Positions 49,983 to 54,145 of a stretch of 64,000 bases of DNA are shown here, piece after piece. This stretch comes from Catenuloplanes atrovinosus (lineage in GTDB: Bacteria > Actinomycetota > Actinomycetes > Mycobacteriales > Micromonosporaceae). Under the pieces are notes generated by a model. That model worked only from the letters and a program-made list of their open reading frames with translations. It made no database searches and was not told the DNA's origin. The position numbers and the translations under genes were made by a program. Positions within the stretch are counted from its first letter, which is position 1. Each line of letters begins with the position of its first letter. The DNA is taken from contig NZ_JAVDYB010000001.1 in assembly GCF_031458235.1 (NCBI RefSeq), forward strand, positions 5,876,001-5,940,000, read 5' to 3'.

Positions 49983-52010
49983 TCAGCCCGCCTCGGCGTA
50001 CGCCCGGCCGCCCTCGGTGAGGGCCTTGGCGTTCGGGTCGTAGAGGCCGTTGCCGAAGTCGTCCGCGACCGGGAGCGAGAACCACGCGTACCGCTCGACG
50101 TACGGCAGGCCCTCCATCATCGCGGTGGAGCCGTCGATGAACGCGGCCTGCTGCGCCCCGCTCGGGAACTTCGGCGAGCCGGCGAAGTTGATCAGGCCGT
50201 ACTCGGTGACCCAGATCGGCAGCTTGTACCGGTCGTGGACGGCCTTGATGTAGCCCTCCAGGTGACCGACCGCGGCCGGGCTGAAGTCCGAGCCGTACCA
50301 GTGCAGCGCGATGAAGTCGACCCGGTAGCCCTTGGCCTTCGCGCCGGCCATGAAGCGATCCAGCCAGCCGCCGGCGGTGTCGCCGCCGTAGGCCACGGCC
50401 GGGCTGCCGAGCCGCATGCCGGTCGCCTGGAGCTGCGGCCACAGCTCCAGCGCCTGCTCCACCGTCATGTTGGCCTGCTCGCCCAGGTCCGGCTCGTTGA
50501 AGCCGAGCAGCGTCTCGCCGTTCGCCTTGGCCTGCGCCAGCGTGCCCGCGTTGACCGAGTCCCTACCCCAGATCATCGGCACGAACTCGACGCCGGACGG
50601 CGCCTTCACCTGGTCCGGCCCGGCGCCCCAGGTGTAGTACCAGGACGCGCCGACCGCGGTCATGCCCGGCCCGACGCCGGCCACCTGCCAGGTGCTCACG
50701 CCCTTCTTCGACGACGCCGCCACGGCCGCGGGCACGATCGGCTTCGGCTGTGCGGGTGGCGTCGCGGACGGCGTGGGGCTGGCGCTGGGTGACGGCGACG
50801 GCGACGCGCTGGCGGACGGGGACGGCGACGGGGACGGGCTCTCCGACGTGACCGGCACCACCGCGGCGGGCGGCGGCTCCTGCGCGGCCGGCACCGGCTC
50901 GTCGCGGCCGGTCAGCGCGAACACGCCACCGGCGGTGACCACCGCGGCCGTGGCCAGCGCGGCGGCGAGCGGCTTCAGACCCAGAAGACCACTGAAGGCC
51001 GCCTTCGCCGGTACGGCGTGCGCGCCGGCCTGCCCGGCGGAGGCGAGCTCGGGGCGGGCCAGCACGTGGGTGGCGGTGGTGCTCGGGTCCGGCGGTGCGG
51101 CACCGAGCTGCACGGTCGCGTCCGGGGCGGGCGCCGCGTCGTACCCGTGGACCGGCTCGTAGCCGCCGGCCGCCTCGTGCCCCGCGGCCGCGGCCGCGCC
51201 GTGCAGCGCCGGCTCCAGTAGGTAGCCGGGGATCGGCACCAGCGCCAGCCCGGCCAGCAGCCGCTCCGCGTCGACCATCTCGTGCCAGGCCCGCGCGCAC
51301 TGGTCGCACTCGCGGGTGTGCCGGGCGAAGCGCTTGCGCCACACCGGCTCCGGGCGGCCGTCCCAGCCGATCGCCAGCAGCGTCAGGTCCGGGCAGGCCG
51401 GGTGCGCGCGCAGCGCGCGGACCACCACGCGGGCGGCCTCCAGCTGCGCCTTCATCCGCTGCACCCGGACCGCGGTGTGCTGGCGGGTCAGGCCGAGCGC
51501 GTGCGCGACGTCCTCGCGGTCGAGCTCGCCGGCCGACTCCAGCCACCAGAGCGAGAGCAGCTCGCGGTCGTCCGGGTCGAGCCAGCGAGTGGCCTGGGCG
51601 ACCTCCTGCCGCTGGCCGGAGAGGCCGAGCCGGACGATGGTCAGGTCGACGAAGTCGGCGCCCGGGTCCGCCACGTCGTCCGGGGTGGCGTCCGCCGGGT
51701 AGGCGCGGGTCAGGTCGCGGTGCCGGTCGCGGACCAGGCGCATCGCGATCGCCACCACCCACGACCGGAACGCGGCGGGGTCCCGCAGTTCCGGCAGGTT
51801 GTGCACGACGCGCAGCATGGTCTCCTGCACCACGTCGTCGACGTCCGCGTGGCCCTGCAGCGCCCGGCCCACGATGTTGTAGACGAGCGGCAGGTACGCC
51901 GCGACCACCCGGTCCAGCGCCGCCGCGTTCCCCTCCCGGGCCGCCCGGACGGTCGCCGGGTCGACGCCGCCGACCGGGCCCCTCGGGTCACGTACCTCTG
52001 GAGTCCACAT
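49983..52010 (-). CDS. Sigma factor fused to ZAS motif, TM helix and GH128-like glycosidase
   Basis: A 675-residue hybrid. Residues 31-98 form sigma-70 region 2 (VVQETMLRVVHNLPELRDPAAFRSW), 138-198 region 4 (DREDVAHALGLTRQHTAVRVQRM), and H231-C235-C238 in HTRECDQC is a zinc anti-sigma (ZAS) signature. A membrane helix follows at about 345-367, then a Ser/Pro-rich linker (about 369-428). The outer domain (about 436-675) resembles GH128 beta-1,3-glucanases: acid Glu506 in GFNEPDLG and nucleophile Glu603 in WVTEYGLI. ATG 52010, 6 bp after GGAGAGG, is chosen over GTG two codons upstream. The design suggests a membrane-held ECF sigma factor whose outer enzyme or lectin senses polysaccharide. Related ECF groups with extracellular C-terminal domains are known; whether cleavage releases the sigma factor is unproven. 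Confidence 0.88.
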   Translation of the reverse strand: MWTPEVRDPRGPVGGVDPATVRAAREGNAAALDRVVAAYLPLVYNIVGRALQGHADVDDVVQETMLRVVHNLPELRDPAAFRSWVVAIAMRLVRDRHRDLTRAYPADATPDDVADPGADFVDLTIVRLGLSGQRQEVAQATRWLDPDDRELLSLWWLESAGELDREDVAHALGLTRQHTAVRVQRMKAQLEAARVVVRALRAHPACPDLTLLAIGWDGRPEPVWRKRFARHTRECDQCARAWHEMVDAERLLAGLALVPIPGYLLEPALHGAAAAAGHEAAGGYEPVHGYDAAPAPDATVQLGAAPPDPSTTATHVLARPELASAGQAGAHAVPAKAAFSGLLGLKPLAAALATAAVVTAGGVFALTGRDEPVPAAQEPPPAAVVPVTSESPSPSPSPSASASPSPSPSASPTPSATPPAQPKPIVPAAVAASSKKGVSTWQVAGVGPGMTAVGASWYYTWGAGPDQVKAPSGVEFVPMIWGRDSVNAGTLAQAKANGETLLGFNEPDLGEQANMTVEQALELWPQLQATGMRLGSPAVAYGGDTAGGWLDRFMAGAKAKGYRVDFIALHWYGSDFSPAAVGHLEGYIKAVHDRYKLPIWVTEYGLINFAGSPKFPSGAQQAAFIDGSTAMMEGLPYVERYAWFSLPVADDFGNGLYDPNAKALTEGGRAYAEAG

Positions 52011-52229
52011 CCGCACCCTCTCCTAGGTCAGCCATCCTGGCGCAACCCGACGGGACTGACCAGGGCCGCGCGGACAGGAGACGGGTCACCCCGGCACCGA
52101 TAACAGGAACTCGGGCGAGATTTTTCCGCGGTACGGACGACGGAGGCCGCCTCCGGGACGGAAACGGCCTCCAACCAGCCCTGCTGCCGCCCCGACCCCC
52201 GCCCCTAAGCCGGAATCAGGGCCCTCCTC

Positions 52230-54071
52230 CTACTTCCAGGCGTCGTTGCGGGCAGTCGTGCCGCCCGCGCCCGTGGTGAAGGCCCGGTTGCCGCCGGACT
52301 CCCACGTGACGGTGCCCGCGCCGTCCTTCTTGATGTACTTGTACTCGATCGCGGTATTCGCCGGGAGCGTCACGGTGGCCGACCACACCGGGTACCCCGC
52401 CGAGGAGAGCGGCACCGCCGCGGCCGGGTTCCAGCCGCCGAGCGCGGGCACGTTGCCGGTCACGAACACGGAGGTGCCCCAGGTGGTGGTCACGTTCGCG
52501 TTGAACGTCACCGCCACGTTCCCGGTCGGGTTCGGCGTGGGCGTGCCGGTGCCGCCGCCGGACCGGGACCCCGCGTGGATGGCGAACGCGCCGTTCGCCG
52601 GGATGGTGACGGTCGCGCTCCCGCCGGAGACGGTCACGGACGAGCCCGCGCAGCCGGTGCCGGTCGCGCCGCCGGTGATCACGTCGCAGTAGACGCCGTC
52701 CGGCAGCCCGGTGCGGTACGTGGCGGTGGAGGCGGCGCCGGACGCGTTCAGCCCGAACCAGCCCAGCGCGCCGCGCCGGAACCCGATCACGTTGCTCGCG
52801 GTGGCGGTGAAGTCGGAGACCGTGGTGGCCGCCGCGGTCGCGTTGTGCCAGCCGACCATGCCCTTCACGCCGGTGGACCGGTGCAGGCACTGCCACTGAC
52901 CGTTGCCGCAGTTCGCGTCCGTGACGAAGCCGTTGGCGTCCGCGGGCGGGGACGCGCCCGTGTTCGACGTGCTGAACGTGAACCCGTCGTAGACGAACGG
53001 CTGCCCGTACGGGTAGGCCAGCAGGAAGTAGTTCGCCAGCGGGTAGCGCGCGCCGTCGGAGTAACGCAGGGTGGTGCCGTCCCGCTCCAGGTCGTGGTTG
53101 GTGATCATCGCGGCGGTCTGGTCGCTGGACGCGTCCAGGCTCCACGACGGGATGCCGGCCAGGTTGTTCAGCGTGCCGTTGACGAACTGGGTGCGCAGCG
53201 CCTGCGCGTAGGAGAAGCCGAGCACGTCGCCGTTCGAGGTGAACGCGGCCGGTTGCAGCTCCGGGTTCGTGGAGCCGGTGAAGATCTCCTGTGCGATGTA
53301 CGGCGCCCGCCCCTCCGCCGTGGTCGGGTGGAGCAGGCCGCGGATCGCGGTGAAGTCGGCGCGCGCCACGTGCTTGGCCGCGTCCACCCGGAAGCCGTCC
53401 ACGCCCAGGCTGATCAGATCGTTCAGGTAGCCGGCGATCCTGGACCGTACCGTCGCGCTCTGGGTCTTCAGGTCCGAGAGCGACAGCAGCATGCAGTTCT
53501 GCACCTCGGACGTGTTGTTCCAGTCGTCGATCACCGCGTCGTCGTCCGCGCAGTAGCCGTCGTTCGCGTGGTGGAAGTCGTCGTAGCCGTACGGCACGGC
53601 GGGGTAGCCGTACCCGGACGGGCTGTACGTGGACCCGCCGTACGTGGTGGTGAGCGTGTTGTTCGCGCCGGCCATGTGGTTGATCACCGCGTCCGCGTAG
53701 ACGCGCACGCCCGCGTCGTGGCAGGCGGTGACCATGGCGGCGAACTCCGCGCGGGTGCCGAGCCGGCTGGTCAGCTTGTACGACACCGGCTGGTACACCT
53801 CCCACCAGGGGTGCGCGCCGCCGTCGCTGGTGGCCAGGCTGACCGACTCCGCGGGCGGCGCGACCTGCACCGCGCCGTAACCGGCCGGACCGAGGTGGTC
53901 ACGGCAGGCGGCGCCGATCGAGCGCCAGTTCCACTCCCAGAGGTTGGCGGTGACGTCGCTGTTGTTGAGTGCCGGGGCCGCCTGCGCGGTGGCGGTGGTG
54001 GCGGTGACGGCGGCGAGCCCGGCGGCGGCGACGGCCACCGGGACGAGTGCTCTTGCGATGAGTTTCTTCAT
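52230..54071 (-). CDS. Secreted alpha-amylase with CBM20
   Basis: A 613-residue GH13 alpha-amylase that hydrolyses starch outside the cell. Signal peptide residues 1-31 (cleavage after AQA). The catalytic triad is Asp230 (GFRVDAAKH), Glu262 (AQEIF) and Asp327 (TNHD). A starch-binding CBM20 forms residues ~505-613 after a Gly/Thr/Pro linker, with Trp residues typical of starch sites. ATG 54071 behind AGGAAGT is chosen; a longer frame upstream lacks a signal. Upstream palindromes resemble LacI-type MalR sites. It precedes the sigma-glycosidase gene on the same strand with a 219-bp gap. Confidence 0.93.
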   Translation of the reverse strand: MKKLIARALVPVAVAAAGLAAVTATTATAQAAPALNNSDVTANLWEWNWRSIGAACRDHLGPAGYGAVQVAPPAESVSLATSDGGAHPWWEVYQPVSYKLTSRLGTRAEFAAMVTACHDAGVRVYADAVINHMAGANNTLTTTYGGSTYSPSGYGYPAVPYGYDDFHHANDGYCADDDAVIDDWNNTSEVQNCMLLSLSDLKTQSATVRSRIAGYLNDLISLGVDGFRVDAAKHVARADFTAIRGLLHPTTAEGRAPYIAQEIFTGSTNPELQPAAFTSNGDVLGFSYAQALRTQFVNGTLNNLAGIPSWSLDASSDQTAAMITNHDLERDGTTLRYSDGARYPLANYFLLAYPYGQPFVYDGFTFSTSNTGASPPADANGFVTDANCGNGQWQCLHRSTGVKGMVGWHNATAAATTVSDFTATASNVIGFRRGALGWFGLNASGAASTATYRTGLPDGVYCDVITGGATGTGCAGSSVTVSGGSATVTIPANGAFAIHAGSRSGGGTGTPTPNPTGNVAVTFNANVTTTWGTSVFVTGNVPALGGWNPAAAVPLSSAGYPVWSATVTLPANTAIEYKYIKKDGAGTVTWESGGNRAFTTGAGGTTARNDAWK

Positions 54072-54108
54072 GGTGAGGACTTCCTGTCCACGAGTCCGCT
54101 GAAACTTC

Positions 54109-54145
54109 TTGCAGAGGAGTGCCCTCTCTGCAAAACCTTGCAAGG
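54109..54145 (-). promoter_or_regulatory. Amylase promoter operators, LacI/MalR-like
   Basis: TTGCAGAG-9 bp-CTCTGCAA (54109-54133) and CCTTGCAAGG (54136-54145) lie 40-75 bp upstream of the amylase start. Similar CTTGCA-type operators control Streptomyces amylase genes through the LacI-family MalR/Reg1 repressor. No such repressor is in the window. Confidence 0.5.

Follow-up and report, generated by a model that had tools for sequence, protein, structure and literature searches.

Some ECF sigma factors of Actinobacteria, assigned to ECF52 and ECF53, carry predicted glycosyl hydrolase and carbohydrate-binding domains, which passages of a 2024 review present as being without experimental validation (PMC10766802). 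As far as the available excerpts describe these proteins, of which SCO4117 represents ECF52, they combine an ECF sigma domain, a zinc-finger anti-sigma segment, a membrane helix, a proline-rich stretch and an extracellular carbohydrate domain. Activation of such membrane sigma factors is expected to occur by proteolysis, according to parts of one article (PMC8999054), and sections of another, on an ECF52 protein with a binding domain, indicate that the sigma part alone can modulate development (PMC5826349). A second point of reference is provided by the SigI/RsgI systems of Clostridium thermocellum, notably SigI6/RsgI6 with its GH10 domain. Extracts of two articles (PMC4711584, PMC12203970) describe an outer glycosidase or binding domain and a membrane helix, together with an autoregulated sigma factor whose regulon holds enzymes for the same kind of polymer. 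A self-cleaving periplasmic domain is, in the parts of that literature at hand, a feature of RsgI.

In the present work, we analyzed a window of 64,000 nucleotides, the whole stretch of DNA under study, from Catenuloplanes atrovinosus (contig NZ_JAVDYB010000001.1, positions 5,876,001 to 5,940,000). One gene on its minus strand joins an ECF sigma factor to a GH128 domain within a single frame and lies behind a promoter-like motif that is conserved in its family. The kind of protein is already known, since passages of PMC10766802 describe ECF52/ECF53 members with predicted glycosyl hydrolase domains, and the earlier note on this DNA states that ECF sigma factors with extracellular C-terminal domains are known in actinobacteria. 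The account that we favor, with some confidence, is that of a membrane-tethered, autoregulated ECF sigma factor acting as a one-protein receptor for beta-1,3-glucan and working like the clostridial SigI/RsgI.

One chain from sigma factor to GH128 domain

A single open reading frame spans positions 49983-52016 (minus strand), GTG 52016 being its first in-frame start and giving a protein of 677 amino acids. The ATG at 52010 chosen in the earlier note delimits a gene at 49983-52010 (minus strand) and a protein of 675 amino acids, which is likelier because this codon has the better-placed Shine-Dalgarno sequence (GGAGAGG) and because the N-terminus read from it, MWTP, is retained in two congeners (L181 and L182). 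Residues are numbered below from the GTG, and subtraction of 2 gives the ATG numbering. The open reading frame, the profile matches and the hydropathy bear out the succession that had been read from the letters, namely sigma factor, HxxxCxxC motif, helix, Ser/Pro linker and GH128. The presence of an anti-sigma motif in the sigma factor itself and of a glycosidase past the membrane helix holds as architecture.

The ECF sigma-70 domain occupies residues 33-193 (51438-51920, minus strand). The Pfam model Sigma70_r2 matches residues 38-104 (E 1.8e-14) and the sigma70-ECF model TIGR02937 matches residues 33-193 (E 5.8e-20); the latter covers profile positions 2-162 of 165, and both regions 2 and 4 are therefore present. 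Pfam's own region 4 models are absent from the matches listed for the protein. Solved ECF sigma factors are matched by the family profile over profile positions 3-183, and the two regions form one compact domain recognized by an ECF profile, as in ECF sigma factors generally. The zinc anti-sigma-type motif follows as HTRECDQC (HxxxCxxC; residues 233-240; 51297-51320, minus strand), and it was found in all 63 related sigma frames inspected. The predicted membrane helix, LAAALATAAVVTAGGVFAL (residues 350-368; 50913-50969, minus strand), has a Kyte-Doolittle mean of 2.05 across its 19 residues, and the translation then runs through a Ser/Pro-rich linker (50709-50891, minus strand). An AlphaFold2 model was built from 40 sequences, those of the window and of related loci. 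Its pLDDT is 82-96 per ten-residue block over the sigma part, save for 45-57 at residues 101-130, mostly below 50 over the linker, and 82-99 over the GH128 domain. The topology that we infer places the sigma part likely inside the cell and the enzyme-like part likely outside.

The domain past the linker (residues 438-677; 49986-50705, minus strand), first described as GH128-like, was confirmed as such by profile search and predicted structure and can be narrowed to subgroup I. Glyco_hydro_cc (PF11790) matches residues 457-673 with an E-value of 1e-49. When solved structures were searched by sequence, the endo-beta-1,3-glucanase AmGH128_I of Amycolatopsis mediterranei (PDB 6uaq) and its mutants came out on top (E 1e-92 to 1e-91), the other GH128 chains reaching 3e-26 or weaker. 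The AlphaFold2 model superposes on 6uaq with a TM of 0.98, an rmsd of 1.0 and 62% identity. Subgroup II comes next at 30-32%, and the GH128 chains that the PDB names oligosaccharide-binding proteins (subgroup VII), at 22-24% identity, are not close to this domain. By its predicted fold, its close identity and its two catalytic glutamates, the outer domain is a GH128 domain of subgroup I. The solved AmGH128_I chain (263 residues) consists of this domain without the sigma part, unlike the window protein.

Both glutamates that had been proposed as catalytic, Glu506 and Glu603 from the ATG, are retained. As Glu508 (50493-50495, minus strand) and Glu605 (50202-50204, minus strand) they align with E102 and E199 of AmGH128_I, the residues changed in its E102A and E199A/Q entries, and they are invariant in an alignment of 40 fusions (40/40), together with N507, H572, W573, Y574 and W602. 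With such residues, the outer domain is predicted to be a competent endo-beta-1,3-glucanase, and its probable substrate is beta-1,3-glucan, which occurs as a polymer in the walls of fungi. A dead glycosidase kept for binding only is not supported, because the catalytic pair is invariant.

The gene upstream of the fusion (52230-54143, minus strand) encodes an alpha-amylase whose C-terminus is formed by a CBM20 starch-binding domain. Its identification as an amylase stood, and its standing as a conserved neighbor did not: an amylase relative occurs in none of the 80 related loci, most of which extend roughly 5 kb to either side and some of which contain a GH128 frame lacking sigma. The amylase was rejected as a partner gene on this count. 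The C. atrovinosus genome, 8.9 Mb in one contig, also encodes a second GH128 protein (L001), which lacks a sigma part and bears a ricin-type lectin domain.

Relatives and their outer domains

A scan of genome contigs brought together at least 540 relatives, and 80 loci were retained. Mechanical reading of their open frames gave 41 with sigma and GH128 parts, 25 with sigma and without GH128, and 19 with GH128 and without sigma. Once the copy from the C. atrovinosus genome itself (L002) and a fragment (L058) are subtracted from the 41, 39 intact fusion relatives are left, spread over 15 genera plus one MAG. L190 is likewise a GH128-type sigma gene. Among the 25 sigma frames without GH128, those of L037 and L048 (runs of N), L058 (broken) and L081 (doubtful frame) were left out of the Pfam scan. 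A CAP outer domain was found in 18 of the remaining 21, and no known outer domain was matched in L035, L040 and L044. Further genomes yielded an AbfB outer domain in four of four cases tested and a right-handed beta-helix in three of three. Streptomyces loci, L054, L057, L061, L066 and L070 among others, unite a related sigma-zinc-membrane part with an outer CAP domain and the promoter-like motif described below, and more distant members (L098, L103, L107 and L108; L102, L104 and L106) have AbfB or Pel9A-like beta-helix outer domains.

When 94 sigma parts were placed in a tree, of which 16 inner branches are open, the nine outer-domain labels, assigned from motifs and by visual inspection, required nine changes (minimum 8; mean of shuffled labels 38.2). 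Outer domains therefore follow the clades of the sigma part, with few exchanges.

A promoter-like motif and the genes behind it

Upstream of the fusion gene lies a putative autoregulated ECF promoter, TGTTATC-N16-CGTCTCC (core GTTATC-N16-GTCTCC; 52077-52104, minus strand), which matches the strict form of a motif with a family-wide footprint. This bipartite motif was found by reading upstream regions; its strict form, GTTAT-N17/18-[GCT]TCTCC, matches once in the window, where 0.03 matches are expected, and stands upstream of 41 of 64 sigma genes. A position matrix exceeds its threshold upstream of 62 of 65 sigma-family genes, window included, on genes on which it was itself trained, the strict count and new loci serving as checks. 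L022 bears the motif too, very near the start and outside the 62, and the upstream matrix scan found none at L044 and L058. The window motif scores 31.4; shuffled upstream regions have a 99th percentile of 9.2 and a maximum of 23.3. Across 55 aligned upstream regions, the two boxes carry 2.0 and 1.6 bits per column, the spacer 0.20 and the flanks 0.25-0.26; the regions had been selected by high score and by a spacer of 16 bases, which favors the boxes. Because spacer and flanks are low in information, the conservation of the boxes is not plain relatedness.

Out of sample, the motif was present at eight of nine further sigma genes (L100 being cut before its outer domain). Six of these eight show the variant GTAATC-N16-GTCTCC, the only form in the six Micromonospora fusion genes, at which the plainer pattern found no motif; its scores of 17.2-18.4 lie above the shuffled 99th percentile and below the shuffled maximum. 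At a score of 5 or more, the motif is missing from all 11 scanned relatives that share the sigma part and have an AbfB domain, a beta-helix or no tail (L098, L099, L102-L108, L110, L111), so the AbfB and beta-helix members may read another promoter. The occurrence of the motif upstream of nearly all family genes suggests that the gene switches on itself, and autoregulation of the window gene, from a promoter that we infer this sigma factor to use, is well supported at the level of sequence.

Within the C. atrovinosus genome, the strict motif is found at this gene and before L084 only. The latter site (6008519-6008546 of that genome) precedes a gene for a membrane protein of 183 amino acids without a Pfam match. 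A congener has a membrane protein of 182-183 amino acids under the strict motif (L194), and across the C. atrovinosus genome and two congeners the motif lies on the sigma gene in all three and before this membrane protein in two of three. A glucan regulon was not found in the C. atrovinosus genome with strict, loosened or one-mismatch patterns, at the locus of the ricin-lectin GH128 paralogue L001, or at five fetched of nine GH16 matches. The 14 one-mismatch matches showed no glucanase by eye, and the best of them (L169, score 19.9) precedes a gene for a protein without a Pfam match.

Several relatives place the motif before other genes. At a matrix score of at least 20, 869 kb of related loci gave nine matches off the sigma genes and none in reversed sequence; free GH128 genes follow six of them, and the other three precede a thaumatin gene, a discoidin-DUF1996 gene and a lipoprotein-like frame truncated where its contig ends. 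When 16 GH128-type genomes (139 Mb) were scanned with the strict form, 28 matches were obtained, against one in the reversed control. Ten fall on the genomes' own fusion gene. GH128 and DUF1996 genes account for four each, GH16 genes with a ricin-B lectin for three, and GH64 and thaumatin genes for one each. The other five concern two BTAD-type regulators, a PrgI-family gene, a deaminase-like gene at a distance of 410 bases and a site without a likely gene. Relatives with a GH16 gene under the motif include Actinoplanes palleronii (L031) and Paractinoplanes bogorensis (L004). Downstream genes were chosen by a rule of length and third-position GC within 350-420 bases, and the glucan-type targets, which by eye start with signal- or anchor-like stretches, were then checked with Pfam.

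Five of the 16 genomes (L020, L022, L023, L049 and L050) had been picked with a glucan-type match already known. The other 11, not picked on outcome, have nine non-self matches, before three GH16, two DUF1996 and two BTAD genes and at two sites without a likely gene, GH16 or DUF1996 making up five of the nine. Three GH16 genes among nine non-self matches correspond to a binomial p of 4e-8, and among 16, with six further genomes added, to 3e-7. Both values assume that GH16 genes make up 0.0008 of all genes, a share estimated from 47 matches in seven genomes with roughly one gene reckoned per kb, and these seven had been chosen after the motif matches were seen.

A sigma-GH128 fusion is likewise present in each of the six Micromonospora genomes that have a motif-bearing free GH128 gene. 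Their free proteins (L049, L050, L051, L064, L065 and L073) have an N-terminal hydrophobic stretch by eye, no sigma part and the motif of the fusion, and are perhaps duplicates that have lost the sigma part. In two lineages, the tree places free GH128 genes that bear the motif together with fused ones (support 92 and 94), so the promoter of a free gene may be a duplicate of that of the fusion. Among 17 free GH128 genes, with L037 (a fusion fragment) and L046 (truncated by a contig end) left out, Fisher's test of 7/11 against 0/6 gave a p of 0.035, which is weak and ignores relatedness. Duplication of the fusion gene cannot explain the motif before GH16, GH64, thaumatin and DUF1996 genes. DUF1996 proteins recur under it (L114, L118, L132 and L138), and from this placement a glucan-related role is possible for a domain without established function. 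BTAD/AAA regulators stand under the strict motif in two Actinoplanes-type genomes (L137 and L139) and could form a second regulatory layer.

The ten CAP-type genomes gave 17 matches and one control match. Eleven were on family sigma genes, and the remaining six included no glucan enzyme, four having been judged by Pfam and two having no likely gene. One match, again lacking a likely gene, and one control match came from a set of four genomes in which the family's sigma factor was not found. When the targets of GH128-type and CAP-type genomes are compared, outer domain and regulon seem to correspond, on small numbers; Fisher's test of 5/9 against 0/6 non-self matches gave a p of 0.044, again weak and blind to relatedness. 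A family-wide draw of 61 genomes, two of which repeat members of the 16, gave 28 matches against one in the control, 11 of them on family sigma genes. By eye, none of the seven non-self matches in six further GH128-type genomes (G000, G046, G061, G069, G087 and G092, that of C. atrovinosus among them) was of glucan type.

These counts bear on a narrower reading, according to which the sigma factor mainly makes more of itself, the product being a surface-tethered glucanase, and glucan genes came under the motif in few lineages. It accords with the seven non-self matches just described and with the C. atrovinosus genome and its two congeners, where the motif marks the sigma gene itself and, in two of three, the small membrane protein. 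Against it stand the GH16, GH64, thaumatin and DUF1996 matches in separate lineages and the ratio of 28 strict matches to one control, and we hold it to be unlikely. Taken together, the matches give good support to autoregulation of the window gene, and they support a glucan-enzyme regulon in some relatives only, not in the C. atrovinosus genome.

A proposed one-protein glucan receptor among known systems

The favored account, a one-protein receptor for beta-1,3-glucan, would operate as follows. The sigma domain would be held inside the cell by the membrane helix and by the zinc anti-sigma segment of the same protein, until the outer GH128 domain meets beta-1,3-glucan, for instance fungal wall glucan. 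Binding or cleavage of the glucan would lay open the linker or the helix to regulated proteolysis, and the freed sigma part would join RNA polymerase and start transcription at TGTTATC-N16-CGTCTCC. Its first target would be its own gene, in a positive feedback, and further targets in several relatives would be genes for glucan-type enzymes. Through such a receptor, bacteria could sense the walls of fungi by means of one protein. A bolder version, which we put forward as a speculation and regard as unlikely, is that glucan turnover by the tethered GH128 domain itself frees the sigma part, one polypeptide then being substrate detector, transducer and transcription factor, and that each outer domain (GH128, CAP, AbfB or beta-helix) has a matching promoter or regulon.

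The signal could also be wall stress, as may hold for the CAP relatives, with the GH128 domain serving as a passive handle or binding an envelope polymer of the cell itself. Related sigma parts do bear CAP, AbfB and beta-helix outer domains, or others without a Pfam match, and the second motif of the C. atrovinosus genome precedes a membrane protein. An envelope sensor of this sort is nevertheless distinctly improbable in view of the catalytic pair and neighboring residues, invariant in 40 of 40 fusions, and of the GH16, GH64 and GH128 targets in relatives. A frameshift or assembly error joining two genes, raised at the outset, can be dismissed because 39 relatives carry the same continuous fusion and because, in two congeners, the frame continues into the GH128 domain up to the end of the fetched loci. 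Among the relatives, L037 (a run of N) and L058 (a broken frame) are themselves interrupted.

Read as a tethered glucan receptor, the window protein is closest by architecture to ECF52/ECF53: sigma domain, zinc anti-sigma motif, helix and carbohydrate domain lie in one chain, as judged by motif and hydropathy. It differs from SCO4117, as partially available descriptions present that protein, in bearing a GH128 rather than a carbohydrate-binding domain, and in its motif, GTTATC-N16-GTCTCC as against the CSGYN-17-SRHA proposed for SCO4117 (PMC5826349). The present motif or regulon was not found in the open-access literature searched, and the string TGTTATC was absent from the articles listed on ECF sigma factors or promoter motifs. 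The architecture is already known. To judge from the open-access literature searched, the additions made here are the conserved motif, the genes that follow it and the placement of the outer domain in GH128 subgroup I. The motif, with glucan-type enzymes behind it in some relatives, gives this ECF/glycosidase type a predicted signal, promoter and regulon open to bench testing. The likeness to SigI/RsgI lies in the outer glycosidase or binding domain, the membrane helix, the autoregulated sigma factor and the enzymes for the same kind of polymer in the regulon. The window protein is not a member of that system, because its sigma factor is of another family, ECF-type rather than SigI-type, and because sigma factor and receptor, which in SigI/RsgI are two separate proteins, are here united in one chain.
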